A stretch of 33,959 nt of DNA from the NCBI GenBank assembly GCA_028875655.1, contig JAPPCX010000035.1:1-33959 (forward strand). Direction: 5' to 3'. The position numbers and the translations under genes are program-made. The notes beneath the pieces are model-generated. The model ran no database searches. It was given only the letters and a program-made list of their open reading frames with translations, and was not told the origin of the DNA. How positions within the stretch are numbered: the stretch's first letter is position 1; each line of letters begins with the position of its first letter. Shown here piece after piece: positions 11,242-18,121 of this stretch. Source of the DNA: Chloroflexota bacterium (GTDB taxonomy: Bacteria; Chloroflexota; Dehalococcoidia; Lucifugimonadales; UBA3495).

Positions 11242-11436
11242 TCAGCACACTTGCGATAGGGACAGTATTGCGCGTGCAACTATGGCTAGGAGACCGAGGG
11301 ATACCCCAACCACTGGGATGGCCCAGAAATGGCGATGGGAGACCAGAACTATGGCCGCCCCTAATCCCATACCCAAAACGACCGCGACGATGACCACAAC
11401 CCACCAGGCGATTTCGCAGAGGAAGTCCAGCATCAT
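11242..11436 (-). CDS. Small two-helix membrane protein
   Basis: A 64-residue, strongly hydrophobic protein with two predicted membrane helices (about residues 10-33 and 38-60) separated by the short polar turn SHRHFW. The start ATGATG 11436 overlaps the stop of the upstream frame in an ATGA arrangement (11433-11436), so translation is probably coupled. The small size suggests a holin-like or accessory peptide. No family is assigned. Confidence 0.5.
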   Translation of the reverse strand: MMLDFLCEIAWWVVVIVAVVLGMGLGAAIVLVSHRHFWAIPVVGVSLGLLAIVARAILSLSQVC

Positions 11437-12256
11437 GTCGCCTCTTTTGCTTCAGCGTCAGTGTTTCCACTACGTTGTGGCCTCGTAAAATGCCCGCGTT
11501 CTCCCCACGGACTGGCAAGCATCCAGCATAGGCGCGCCGTGATGCGCTCCCGGTGGCATTCCTGGGGGATCACCAGAAACACGCGAGAAGTGCCGCGGTG
11601 AAACCACATCGGGATTGGTTCCGTACACAACGCCTTGTGGATTTCGGCGCAAATGTTCCTGATCTGCGCCTCAGCCTTCCCGCTCATGTTCAACTGGTGA
11701 TAGACCACGAGGCTTTTCCCGGCGTCCCAGACTGCCTTGAGGTCGTCCATGTAGGCATACTTCGGCCCGTCTCTGCGATACTTCAGAACGTCCTCGGCCG
11801 GCCGGATGTTGTGTTATCCGGGTCGAGGAACACCACATCCGCGTCTGCCATCCCATCGAGCGCACTCCGCCACCACCGGGCGCGCACTTCCCGATTGTTC
11901 ACCGCGTTGTTGTTCCAGCCGGCGTTGTGGAGCGATAGACCGAAATAGATGGTATCCGCCGGGAGAATGGCCGACTTCTCAATACATCCGACGCAACGGC
12001 GGTGCGGAACCAGCGTCTGCAAGTCGTGCCACAGCCCGGGGTCGCAGTCGTGATATTCCAGATACTTCTGTTTGGTGTGGGCCAGGTAGCCGGTGAACCT
12101 GCCCGCGGTGTCGTCCGGGTCGTCCGGCGTCATGTACCAGACCACGCCCAACCGCAGATCAGCCTCCAGCGTCTCGGGATCGGTGATGCCGCACAATCGG
12201 CGCAGTAGTCCGTACTTGCCAAAGTCGCCAACGTCGGCCACGAATTGATCTCGCAT
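11433..12256 (-). pseudogene. Frameshifted gene of an uncharacterised DPDN-motif family
   Basis: Two reading frames together make one protein of about 270 residues. The N-terminal frame (12256 to 11783, 157 residues) starts MRDQFVADVGDFGKYGLLRRL and reaches VVFLDPDNTTSGRP. The C-terminal frame resumes with AEDVLKYRRDGPKYAYMDDL and continues KSLVVYHQLN to 11433. The break falls in the CCGGCCGG run at 11795-11805, where one base too many or too few explains it. I recall the combined pattern (GDFGKYGLLR, GVVWY, FLDPDN, LVVYHH) from a family of hypothetical proteins common in islands. Function is unknown. Decay is likelier than programmed shifting, but the run is repetitive. Confidence 0.7.
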
Positions 12257-12296
12257 GGGTGGTTGCCCCCTTCATTCCATCTGGCTGGCAACCACC

Positions 12297-12354
12297 AAAA
12301 AGCGGTTGCCTTGCCTTCTCATCCACGCCGGGATTTGAACCACAAGGCAACCGC
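12297..12354 (-). terminator. Long hairpin plus T-run (minus-strand terminator candidate)
   Basis: GCGGTTGCCTTG (12302-12313) pairs perfectly with CAAGGCAACCGC (12343-12354) around a 29-nt loop that contains a T-arm-like GGTTCAAATCC (minus strand). On the minus strand the stem is followed by TTTTT. The next hairpin (CCGCCGA/TCGGCGG, 12351-12371) shares four bases with this stem, so the two cannot fully coexist. Confidence 0.5.
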
Positions 12355-12419
12355 CGATATAATTTCGGCGGCCCGTTCGGGCCTTTGGGCGTCCCGGCAT
12401 GGATGCCCAAAACAAGCGG

Positions 12420-12444
12420 CCCTCGGCATTAGCGGTGCCGAGGG
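12420..12444. ncRNA. Perfect hairpin, 9-bp stem, 7-nt loop
   Basis: CCCTCGGCA (12420-12428) and TGCCGAGGG (12436-12444) pair completely around TTAGCGG. It is part of the structured region upstream of the ribozyme. The 7-nt loop size recurs in the hairpins at 12351-12371 and 12709-12733. Confidence 0.55.
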
Positions 12445-12508
12445 TCGCACTTTCTTACTGAATTAAGCGCATCGGGAACCTCCCTCGCGGCCATGAGGAT
12501 GGCGTCTT

Positions 12509-12621
12509 GCTAGGGTCGCCGGGTCCCGTTGAGGGGATCGCAAGGGAGGCACGAATGCCATCCAAAGCTGAATATCCCAATCAACGGGCAGGGCTGCGTG
12601 CCCTTGTCCCTCGACCCTAGC
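12509..12621. ncRNA. Branched 113-nt RNA fold of unknown class
   Basis: The closing stem GCTAGGGTCG/CGACCCTAGC is 10 bp and perfect. Inside, CCCGTTGA (12525-12532) pairs with TCAACGGG (12581-12588), and GGGAT with ATCCC (12534-12538/12574-12578) stacks on it, capped by GGCA-CGAA-TGCC. A second arm, AGGGC-TGCGT-GCCCT (12590-12604), completes a three-way junction. An alternative pairing of CAAGGG (12541-12546) with CCCTTG (12601-12606) would make a pseudoknot. It does not match twister, pistol or HDV cores as far as I can tell. Confidence 0.55.
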
Positions 12622-12708
12622 GCGGCCATTGAACCACAAGGGGGCGGGCGCGTCAATTTTTTGGGCGTAGCCGTGCCGGGGTTATGATGGTCTAGGTAAT
12701 AAGTTGAT

Positions 12709-12733
12709 GGGCCGGAGTCCAAAGCTCCGGCCC
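12709..12733 (+). ncRNA. Perfect hairpin directly 5' of the hammerhead
   Basis: GGGCCGGAG (12709-12717) and CTCCGGCCC (12725-12733) form nine perfect pairs around TCCAAAG. It lies four bases before ribozyme stem I and may contribute the loop contact or insulate the ribozyme fold. Confidence 0.6.
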
Positions 12734-12737
12734 GTCT

Positions 12738-12786
12738 GCCGCACTGATGAGGGGATACCCCGAAATGCGACGATTGCATCTGCGGC
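12738..12786 (+). ncRNA. Hammerhead ribozyme, type I
   Basis: All core elements are in order and unmutated. Stem I 5' strand GCCGCA (12738-12743), CTGATGA (12744-12750), stem II GGGG-ATA-CCCC (12751-12761), GAAA (12762-12765), stem III TGC-GACGATT-GCA (12766-12778), cleavage dinucleotide TC (12779-12780) and stem I 3' strand TGCGGC (12781-12786), fully complementary to the 5' strand. Cleavage is expected after C12780. The known consensus CUGANGA...GAAA...UH is met exactly. Stem I is open at the far end, which defines type I. Bacterial hammerheads are often near prophage or mobile genes, as here. Confidence 0.88.
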
Positions 12787-13003
12787 TTCCGAGGATGAAA
12801 ATGCCAAGAGGACCGCCCTGCTGGACGGTCTAGACGGTCATTTGACTGTCGAAGGCCGAGTCCAGGCGAAGAACCCTTTGGGAGCCGCCCTCGACCTCGT
12901 CGGTATCAACGGCGGGGACGAGGGAGTAACCGACATTGCCGGTGGCAAGTCCGGCTACCGCATCTGCGCGGGCAGGGTACACCAGTAGAACGAAATTGCG
13001 CAA

Positions 13004-15318: not shown

Positions 15319-15390
15319 TGGTGGAGACGCCGGGATTCGAACCCGGGCAGGGCGTGGCTATCAACCTGACCTGCTCACCAAGACGTCCCC
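15319..15390 (-). tRNA. tRNA-like structure with encoded CCA, no clear anticodon arm
   Basis: The acceptor stem GGGGACG/CGTCTCC pairs over seven positions (one G-U). The T-arm CCGGG-TTCGAAT-CCCGG is perfect, the discriminator is A and CCA is encoded. Total length is 72 nt with CCA, about four short. The middle does not form a normal anticodon arm: GCAGG pairs with CCTGC around an 18-nt insert that itself can fold (GGTT-GAT-AGCC). It may be a decayed tRNA or a mimic recognised by tRNA enzymes. Confidence 0.6.
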
Positions 15391-15403
15391 ACCGCTCTTA
15401 TGT

Positions 15404-15495
15404 TGGCGGAGGATGGCGGGATCGAACCGCAATGCCTTTGGAGACATTTCTCGGATTTACAGTCCGGTCCAGTTACCAAACTGGAAACATCCTCC
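15404..15495 (-). tRNA. tRNA-Tyr (GTA)
   Basis: A class II tRNA with long variable arm. The acceptor GGAGGAT/ATCCTCC is perfect, followed by discriminator G and encoded CCA. The D-arm is CCAGTTTGGTAACTGG, the anticodon loop CTGTAAA (anticodon GTA) sits on CGGA/TCCG, the variable arm includes GAGA...TCTC, and the T-arm GCGG-TTCGATC-CCGC has its outer pair mismatched. It differs from a typical chromosomal tRNA-Tyr in several stem pairs, as tRNAs carried by mobile elements often do. Confidence 0.8.
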
Positions 15496-15864: not shown

Positions 15865-16156
15865 GGGGCGGGGTAGTTGGATGGTTGAGTTAAATGGTAC
15901 GGATGGATGGAGGTTAGGGGCAAGGGGGAACGTGTCACTCATGGGTGTGGGAAACCGTCGTTGCGAGCGAAGCGTGGCAACCTCGTGCCGATGGCGACGC
16001 CCGTAGCCCCAACGAGATTGCGTCGCTTTGCTCCTCGCAACGACGATGACACCATTGGCGGAGTTTTGCACAGTGCAGGGCCGGCTCTCTCCCTTGCCGA
16101 TTTTCCGCACGGTGGGCTATACTGATTTACAGTTTTTTCAGGCGGGCGTGAGCGAA
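15865..16156. repeat. Intergenic repeats upstream of prfA-prmC
   Basis: The segment holds two arms of the GTTGCGAGCGAAGCGTGGCAAC repeat family (15957-15983 and about 16018-16046, inverted). The frame of the downstream gene stays open through this part, but it has no protein-like character. No separate gene is seen. Confidence 0.5.
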
Positions 16157-18121
16157 ATGGTCGACATTTTCGATAAGTTGCAGCCCATTGTGGAGCGGTA
16201 TCGCGCCATCGAAACCGAGATGGCCCAACCCGAGGTTGCCGCCGATTATGCTCGTTTGGGTGAACTGAATCGCGAACGCTCCGGCCTGGAGGACCTGGTC
16301 GGCATCGACGTGGAGCGCCGCAAGCTGGCCGAGGAACAGGCTGACCTGCGCGCCCTCATCACCGAGGGCGGCGACCCTGAGTTGGTCGAAATGGCCCAGT
16401 TGGAATTGGCCGATGTTGAAAACCGCCTTTCCGAACTGGCCCAGCAACTCCGCATCGCCCTGCTGCCCAAGGATCCCAACGACGAACGCGACGTGATTGT
16501 CGAGATCCACGCCGCCGCCGGCGGGCAGGAAGCGTCGCTGTTCGCGTCCGACCTCTACCGCATGTACCAGCGCTACGCCCAGGAACAGGGCTGGAGCGTG
16601 GACATCCTGGACTCCAACCCGTCCGACTTGGGCGGATTCAGCCGCATCGCGTTTTCCGTGGACGGGCGAAACGCCTTCAGTAAGCTCAAGTTCGAGGCCG
16701 GCGTACATCGCGTCCAGCGCGTTCCCGAAACCGAGGCGCAGGGCCGCATCCACACCTCCACGGCCACGGTGGCCGTGCTGCCCCAGGCCGACGAGGTTGA
16801 GGTCAACATCAAGGAAGACGACCTGCGCATCGACATATTCCACGCCGGCGGACACGGCGGGCAGAACGTCAACAAAGTCGCCACCGCCGTGCGCATCGTC
16901 CACGAACCTACGGGCATCACCGTCGTCTGCCAGGACGAACGCTCCCAGTACAAGAACAAGTCCAAGGCCATGACCATCCTGCGCAGCCGGCTCTACTCCG
17001 CCGAGCAGGAACGGCACCAGGCCGAGATTTCCAGCAACCGCAAGGCCCAGATCGGCAGCGGCGACCGCAGCGAGAAAATCCGCACCTACAACTACCCCCA
17101 GGATCGCATCACCGACCACCGGATCAGCCTGTCCACTCACGGGATACAGCGCCTGATGGACGGCGGCCTCAACGAGATCATCGACCGCCTCATCACCGCC
17201 GACCAGGAGCGCGGTCTGGCCGCCATCTCCGCGTATGCCCTGATGCCCAGCCTGCGCGACGTAATCCAGGCCACCCACCGCACGCTGGAATCGGCCGGCA
17301 TCCCCGATGCCCGGCTGGAGGCCGAGGTCATGGTGATGGACGTGATGCGGATGCCTCGCCAGGCCATCTTCGCCGAGCAGGAATCCCAGGTCGCGGCGCA
17401 GCAGGAGGCCCAGCTATCCGCCATCGTGGAGCGACGCCTCACCCGCGAACCGTTGGCCTACATCCTCAACTACCGCGAGTTCTACGGCGTCAACCTGCTG
17501 GTCAACCCGGACGTGCTCATCCCGCGGCCGGAGACGGAAACGCTGGTGGAACACGCCCTGTTTATGGCCCTCATGGGCATGGAGAGCCGGGAGTTGGTCA
17601 TCGCCGACGTGGGCACCGGAACCGGCGCCATCGCCGTCAACTTGGCCATCCACCTGCCTGCCGCCCGCATCTACGCCAGCGACGCCTTTGACCCGACGCT
17701 GGACGTGGCGGCCTACAACGTGCGGATGCACAACGTCGCCGACCGGGTCACGCTGCTGAAAGGCGACCTGCTGGAATCGCTCCCGGAGCCGGTGGACGTG
17801 ATCGCGGCCAACCTGCCCTACCTGCCCACCGAACGCATCCCCACGTTGCAACCGGAAGTCCAGTGGGAACCGGTGGTGGCCCTGGACGGCGGGCCCGACG
17901 GCCTGGACCACATCCGCCGCCTGATCGCACAGGCCGCCGAGCCGGACCGCCTCAAACCCCACGGCGTCATCCTGCTGGAAATGGACCCGGAGCAGATGGA
18001 TGAGGCGCGACGCCTGGCATCGGAAACGTTCCCGGACGCCGAAATCACCGTCGAGCGCGACCTGGCCGGCCGGGAGCGCGTGCTATCGGTCAGCCTCGCC
18101 GGCAGCCAGGACGGCTACTAG
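16157..18121 (+). CDS. Fusion of peptide chain release factor 1 and PrmC methyltransferase
   Basis: One 654-residue frame joins RF1 (about residues 1-358) to PrmC (about 365-654). RF1 decodes UAA/UAG stops: the tripeptide region is RVPETEAQGRIHTS (PET at 190-192) and the peptidyl-hydrolysis loop is GGHGGQNVNK (GGQ at 234-236). PrmC methylates that glutamine using SAM: SAM motif I DVGTGTGAIAV (484-494), IPRPETE (455-461) and NLPY (552-555) in place of the usual NPPY. The linker SAYALMPSLRD has Met363, where a separate PrmC would begin, but no ribosome-binding site precedes it. ATG 16157 is chosen; GTG 16148 is an alternative. The stop overlaps the convergent gene by four bases. Confidence 0.9.
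   Translation: MVDIFDKLQPIVERYRAIETEMAQPEVAADYARLGELNRERSGLEDLVGIDVERRKLAEEQADLRALITEGGDPELVEMAQLELADVENRLSELAQQLRIALLPKDPNDERDVIVEIHAAAGGQEASLFASDLYRMYQRYAQEQGWSVDILDSNPSDLGGFSRIAFSVDGRNAFSKLKFEAGVHRVQRVPETEAQGRIHTSTATVAVLPQADEVEVNIKEDDLRIDIFHAGGHGGQNVNKVATAVRIVHEPTGITVVCQDERSQYKNKSKAMTILRSRLYSAEQERHQAEISSNRKAQIGSGDRSEKIRTYNYPQDRITDHRISLSTHGIQRLMDGGLNEIIDRLITADQERGLAAISAYALMPSLRDVIQATHRTLESAGIPDARLEAEVMVMDVMRMPRQAIFAEQESQVAAQQEAQLSAIVERRLTREPLAYILNYREFYGVNLLVNPDVLIPRPETETLVEHALFMALMGMESRELVIADVGTGTGAIAVNLAIHLPAARIYASDAFDPTLDVAAYNVRMHNVADRVTLLKGDLLESLPEPVDVIAANLPYLPTERIPTLQPEVQWEPVVALDGGPDGLDHIRRLIAQAAEPDRLKPHGVILLEMDPEQMDEARRLASETFPDAEITVERDLAGRERVLSVSLAGSQDGY

Follow-up and report, generated by a model that had tools for sequence, protein, structure and literature searches.

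Minus-strand copy of a riboswitch-like leader RNA, best read as a new Chloroflexota family, with a pseudoknot that very probably hides the ribosome-binding site

The window, that is the whole stretch of 33,959 nucleotides from contig JAPPCX010000035.1 of a Chloroflexota bacterium, contains a 747-nt segment at 12257-13003 that folds with unusual stability on both strands (z -7.5 for plus and -6.1 for minus against dinucleotide shuffles). The elements found in and around this segment are listed below.

11783-12256, minus strand: next minus-strand gene, beginning MRDQFVADVGDFGKYG, frameshifted compared with its relatives and continuing in 11433-11750
12258-12410, strand not assigned: second hairpin module, adjoining the gene at 12256; its conservation at this locus extends to four genomes
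12455-12472, minus strand: start codon and five-codon frame MRLIQ*, following the leader at this copy
12475-12622, minus strand: leader RNA of 148 nt with its 5' end near 12622, described by covariance models R1-R3 with 132 distinct members
12628-12633, minus strand: -10 element TTCAAT, extended (TGG before it), ending about 5 nt ahead of the RNA
12651-12656, minus strand: -35 element TTGACG; the -35/-10 pattern is present here in nearly all of 100 members
12738-12786, plus strand: hammerhead-like motif of type I topology, lying apart from the leader

The first-pass annotation had read the segment as one non-coding RNA of about 700 nt made up of five strong hairpins, a branched fold and a ribozyme. 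Its core intuition, that a real structured RNA is present, is right: the hairpins are found at 12258-12296, 12302-12354, 12351-12371, 12384-12411 and 12416-12448, and the branched fold spans 12479-12621. The stretch was divided on the basis of blastn against 50 genomes of the same family. The genus has the block 12475-12630 at several places, the hairpin block 12316-12410 recurs at this locus only (four genomes of the genus), and in the closest relative similarity ends at 12660, with everything beyond, including the hammerhead stretch, being absent there. Since its parts differ in conservation in this way, and also in strand, the region consists of several units and not of one giant RNA. Comparative folding, which had been proposed as a check, did recover a conserved structured RNA, but only at 12475-12622 on the minus strand and not across the whole stretch; this conserved unit of about 148 nt is one copy of an uncatalogued pseudoknotted leader RNA.

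Seven copies aligned on the minus strand have a structure in common (single-copy folding z -4.4 to -6.5). A first covariance model gave 36 matches in 19 of the 50 genomes of the family, the second searched 197 genomes of the order and had more than 120 matches, spread over 47 of them, and the third reached additional families of the class and phylum. The distinct copies gathered from Chloroflexota genomes are the 132 listed above. The window copy scored 111.9 bits against R3 (E 3e-24), and control sequence from ten member genomes, 200 kb in all, scored 10.4 bits at best. Eight genomes searched with laxer filters held 3-10 copies each. The copies are strongly diverged and are not recent duplicates. 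Two copies in genome G008 match contigs of the sponge-associated 'Chloroflexi bacterium isolate SB0662_bin_27' without a difference, and this identity places the leader group in Chloroflexota. An exact DNA pattern run against named genomes recovered this bin too; its other matches, in Rhizobiaceae, Alistipes and an unclassified uncultured bacterium, were rejected, as the covariance model gives them no support. Two divergent back-to-back pairs of leaders with their promoters facing each other were observed, L067/L071 (G006:C9:45840-46327) and L022/L066 (G014:C115:66616-67147).

No Rfam 15 family was matched by twenty leader loci at gathering score, or by eight divergent leader loci at E values up to 1, nor did the Rfam searches of the leader as a whole give a weak match at E up to 1-2, and a literature search, with subscription papers largely outside its coverage, returned no description of this leader RNA. 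The Chloroflexi-1 RNA motif (RF01698) is listed for a single species, Chloroflexus aggregans, and a '?' stands for its cis-regulatory status (PMC2864571). Like that motif the leader is a structured RNA from Chloroflexi, but no leader copy tested has an Rfam match to it. The best reading is that the leader represents a new and widespread regulatory RNA family, a riboswitch-like translational leader of Chloroflexota.

The position of the leader relative to transcription and translation signals was examined; the covariance models had taken in neither promoter nor start codon. A sigma70-like promoter lies upstream of the leaders, in most copies with 5-6 nt between the end of the -10 element and the RNA, and promoter mismatches average 3.1 in the leaders versus 5.7 in controls. 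We infer that the upstream edge of the element includes its own promoter and that transcription starts close to the first base. At the other end, a start codon follows 0-6 nt downstream of the leader in 87 of 101 model copies and in all 31 held-out copies. ATG alone occupies that place in 62 of the 101 copies versus 4-15 at control offsets, and in about 14% of the 101 the first 14 nt downstream lack a start codon (counted as ATG, or as GTG/TTG opening a frame of at least 40 aa). The leader thus stands directly before a start codon, as a translational riboswitch does.

In the proposed fold a 10-bp stem opens into a three-way junction, and the helices D'-D and A'-A make up a pseudoknot. Its strands in the window copy, from 5' to 3' in the RNA, are as follows.

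12612-12621, minus strand: 5' strand of stem B, paired with 12509-12518 (10 bp)
12525-12588, minus strand: long C/E arm of the three-way junction, with 12581-12588 paired to 12525-12532 and the 12574-12580 region to 12534-12538
12557-12563, minus strand: D' strand GGAUGGC, paired with D at 12497-12503; included in the swap test
12548-12559, minus strand: small local hairpin GGCA-UUCG-UGCC, which offers the end of D' another partner
12539-12549, minus strand: A' strand CCUCCCUUGCG (anti-Shine-Dalgarno), paired with A at 12479-12489
12509-12518, minus strand: 3' strand of stem B, partner of 12612-12621
12497-12503, minus strand: D strand GCCAUCC, partner of D'; included in the swap test
12479-12489, minus strand: A strand CGCGAGGGAGG, including the Shine-Dalgarno sequence, partner of A'

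Over 31 aligned copies, 88.8% of the cells of the 39 proposed pairs are paired, a value that falls to 43-44% when the partner is slid by one base, and two-sided changes are found in 36 of the 39 pairs. Stem B is paired in 99.3% of cells, with two-sided changes in nine of its ten pairs, and the A'-A helix in 91.9%. In a mutual-information scan of 101 copies the top co-varying columns were nearly all proposed pairs.

The pseudoknot was further assessed by a swap test, in which strands were exchanged between copies and the pairing energies compared (2000 permutations). Swapping cost 3.2 kcal/mol for D'-D (z -15.9) and 4.4 kcal/mol for A'-A (z -17.2), and for neither helix was any of the 2000 permutations as good. 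The alternative helices D-A and D'-A showed no coevolution in this test, and a simple nested model with D pairing to A was dropped for that reason. The local hairpin between D' and A' coevolves more weakly (z -6.6). The 31 held-out copies again showed coevolution of the middle region with A (z -9.2) and, less strongly, with D (z -3.6). The A side of A'-A varies little, being constrained as a Shine-Dalgarno sequence (AAGGGGG or AAGGGAGG). A linker, AAGU, is conserved and unpaired. Both the helices of the leader and its position are supported by comparative sequence evidence. Conserved structure with covariation and a ribosome-binding site that is sequestered or alternatively paired are further hallmarks of translational riboswitches; the first is seen throughout the leader and the second in A'-A, with the local hairpin as a weaker competitor for D'.

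The proteins encoded downstream share a destination and not a domain. Among the 79 downstream proteins of at least 100 aa, 64 have a hydrophobic N-terminus (15 of 173 control genes; P ~1e-30) and 29 are lipoprotein-like (3 of 173), where export was called, like the choice of start codon, by simple rules (a hydrophobicity window and a lipobox pattern) and not by a trained predictor. Their domains are unrelated and include RCC1, TPR, trypsin-like, collagen-like and DUF805, among others. Most of the genes that the leader is predicted to control would encode membrane proteins, secreted proteins or lipoproteins. The family numbers more than 130 copies and its regulatory position is clear; its regulon would be unusually coherent, set by protein location and not by pathway.

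The window copy looks intact. Long exported-protein genes follow the leader at most other copies, and in the relatives L016/L017 the frame after it has 22 codons. Here the leader runs only into the five-codon frame and then, past the hairpin module 12258-12410, into a frameshifted gene, and this copy may therefore have lost its original target. The gene in question (11433-12256, minus) belongs to no family in Pfam, NCBIfam or PADLOC; it is split by the frameshift near 11783, and an apparently longer open copy is present in L120 (2294-3154). Ahead of it, at 12258-12356 on the minus strand, alternating GGUUGCC/GGCAACC arms, a T-run and a Shine-Dalgarno hairpin form an arrangement that resembles an attenuator, and the relatives L006 and L016 have a longer form of it with three inner hairpins.

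The minus strand at 12475-12622 thus very probably encodes one member of a new cis-acting 5' leader family whose pseudoknot hides the ribosome-binding site. After transcription from the built-in promoter, the RNA would fold into the 10-bp stem and the three-way junction, with the tip of the arm presenting D' and A'. These strands would then pair with D and A just ahead of the start codon to form the pseudoknot, and since the A strand contains the Shine-Dalgarno sequence the fold would mask the ribosome-binding site. Translation would be blocked as long as the leader is folded, and a signal that loosens the fold would presumably set the site free.

In preQ1 and SAM-II, which are pseudoknot riboswitches acting on translation, the Shine-Dalgarno sequence likewise lies in a pseudoknot helix and the leader directly precedes the start codon. 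By analogy the present leader would work in the same manner, as a putative member of that kind with a putative ligand. In contrast to preQ1 and SAM-II, it is about 148 nt long, contains a three-way junction and precedes a varied set of exported-protein genes instead of those of one biosynthetic pathway. A distribution of that kind is known from the cyclic di-GMP riboswitches GEMM-I and GEMM-II, which occur in several copies per genome before varied surface and extracellular genes. The leader shares the multiple copies per genome and the varied exported-protein genes, but its architecture differs and Rfam gave no match to GEMM-I or GEMM-II.

Among possible triggers a small molecule is the most likely; it would make the leader a translational riboswitch, and we put this at about an even chance. 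The wider proposal, that the leaders constitute a small-molecule riboswitch class spread over several Chloroflexota classes, in which one intracellular signal unmasks the ribosome-binding sites of exported proteins and lipoproteins, is put forward tentatively, as close to an even bet. No ligand can be named from the targets, since the downstream genes are too varied. If gating by a ligand holds, the leader would constitute a new riboswitch class and hint at a signal governing the cell surface of Chloroflexota, sponge-associated lineages included; the alignments and models make ligand gating directly testable.

The main alternative is that the trigger is a protein or another trans-acting factor and the leader its operator, with a shared envelope regulator binding the pseudoknot and controlling translation. 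Many diverse targets having export or membrane location as their one common property would suit such a global regulator, and the conserved unpaired AAGU linker could serve as its binding site. Simple protein operators, however, usually need less structure than an elaborate and strongly conserved pseudoknot plus junction, and no candidate protein emerged; we consider this explanation unlikely, if the most serious of the competitors. That the leader has no specific trigger, and acts as an RNA thermometer or as a constitutive leader setting low translation or stability, is less probable still: a stably sequestered Shine-Dalgarno sequence would suffice for either role, but the usual known thermometer is a simple, imperfectly paired hairpin, and the leader keeps long GC-rich helices and a pseudoknot from genus to genus. 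A mobile DNA repeat (a miniature transposon, say, or a recombination site), with a structure that acts in DNA transactions and not in RNA control, could account for copies dispersed beside unrelated genes, some of them as divergent pairs, but would not be expected to carry a fixed promoter, a Shine-Dalgarno sequence, a start codon, pseudoknot coevolution and a bias toward exported proteins, nor to occur as copies so far diverged, and we regard it as highly improbable.

Equally hard to credit is the original proposal of a single plus-strand RNA of about 700 nt with the hammerhead as one end, for which the dense and stable plus-strand folding, the hammerhead core and a promoter-like site at 12335-12363 speak, but against which stand the location of the conserved family's promoter, Shine-Dalgarno sequence and start codon on the minus strand, the unequal evolutionary ranges of the parts, the terminator-like hairpin at 12416-12448 that would end a plus-strand transcript early, and the absence of an Rfam match. 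Nowhere in 12257-13003 does an Rfam 15 family reach its threshold, and the suggested covariance search against known large RNAs, GOLLD and ROOL included, gave no match. The likeness to GOLLD and ROOL drawn in the first-pass annotation therefore extends to the stable and ornate folding of the stretch; the conserved unit is 148 nt, not several hundred, and is a 5' leader on the other strand.

The leader apart, the plus strand has features of its own. The promoter-like site (TTGAAC-17-TATAAT) is conserved in two relatives and is followed by three hairpins within 12335-12455, the last of them terminator-like; this arrangement may represent a small RNA of its own, about 80 nt long.

Further along, the claimed ribozyme at 12738-12786 has the formally complete core of a type I hammerhead (CUGAUGA/GAA), with three stems of 6/4/6 bp and UC as the cleavage site, that is, the conserved core, three stems and UH site by which a hammerhead is defined, with cleavage predicted after C12780. 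A formally complete core occurred in none of 200 simulated windows. Unlike an established hammerhead, the motif fits the Rfam hammerhead models weakly and in part (Hammerhead_3, 17.5 bits versus a gathering score of 48.5), is a singleton and lies inside an open frame. Among 14 genomes of the genus there was no second copy with a paired stem II; the pattern is about as frequent in the genus as a reversed control, and other matches lacked a paired stem II on inspection. The motif is a separate singleton whose self-cleavage is only predicted, and, being on the plus strand and outside the conserved minus-strand unit, it cannot set the end of the conserved RNA, as had been suggested.

The enclosing frame, of 94 aa (12704-12988), overlaps the hammerhead motif and so qualifies the earlier remark, otherwise roughly right, that the region holds no good gene. 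It was rejected as a conserved gene, since neither the family nor viral contigs yielded a relative and no domain was recognised. Also rejected was a Twister-P5 candidate at 12879-12954 (plus), which scored 25.9 bits, below its gathering score of 37.6, and lies inside the same orphan frame.

Elsewhere in the window, protein P0003 (13004-13567, minus) has several diverged relatives at the matching locus of another genome (three tblastn matches in L120) and could be placed in no family. Two adjoining tRNA-like genes at 15319-15495 (minus) are called by ARAGORN in neither case; one scores as tRNA-Sec yet has a GUA (Tyr) anticodon loop, and the other scores as a truncated tmRNA. At 16028-18121 (plus), a single open frame combines peptide chain release factor 1 with PrmC, the methyltransferase that modifies release factor 1.
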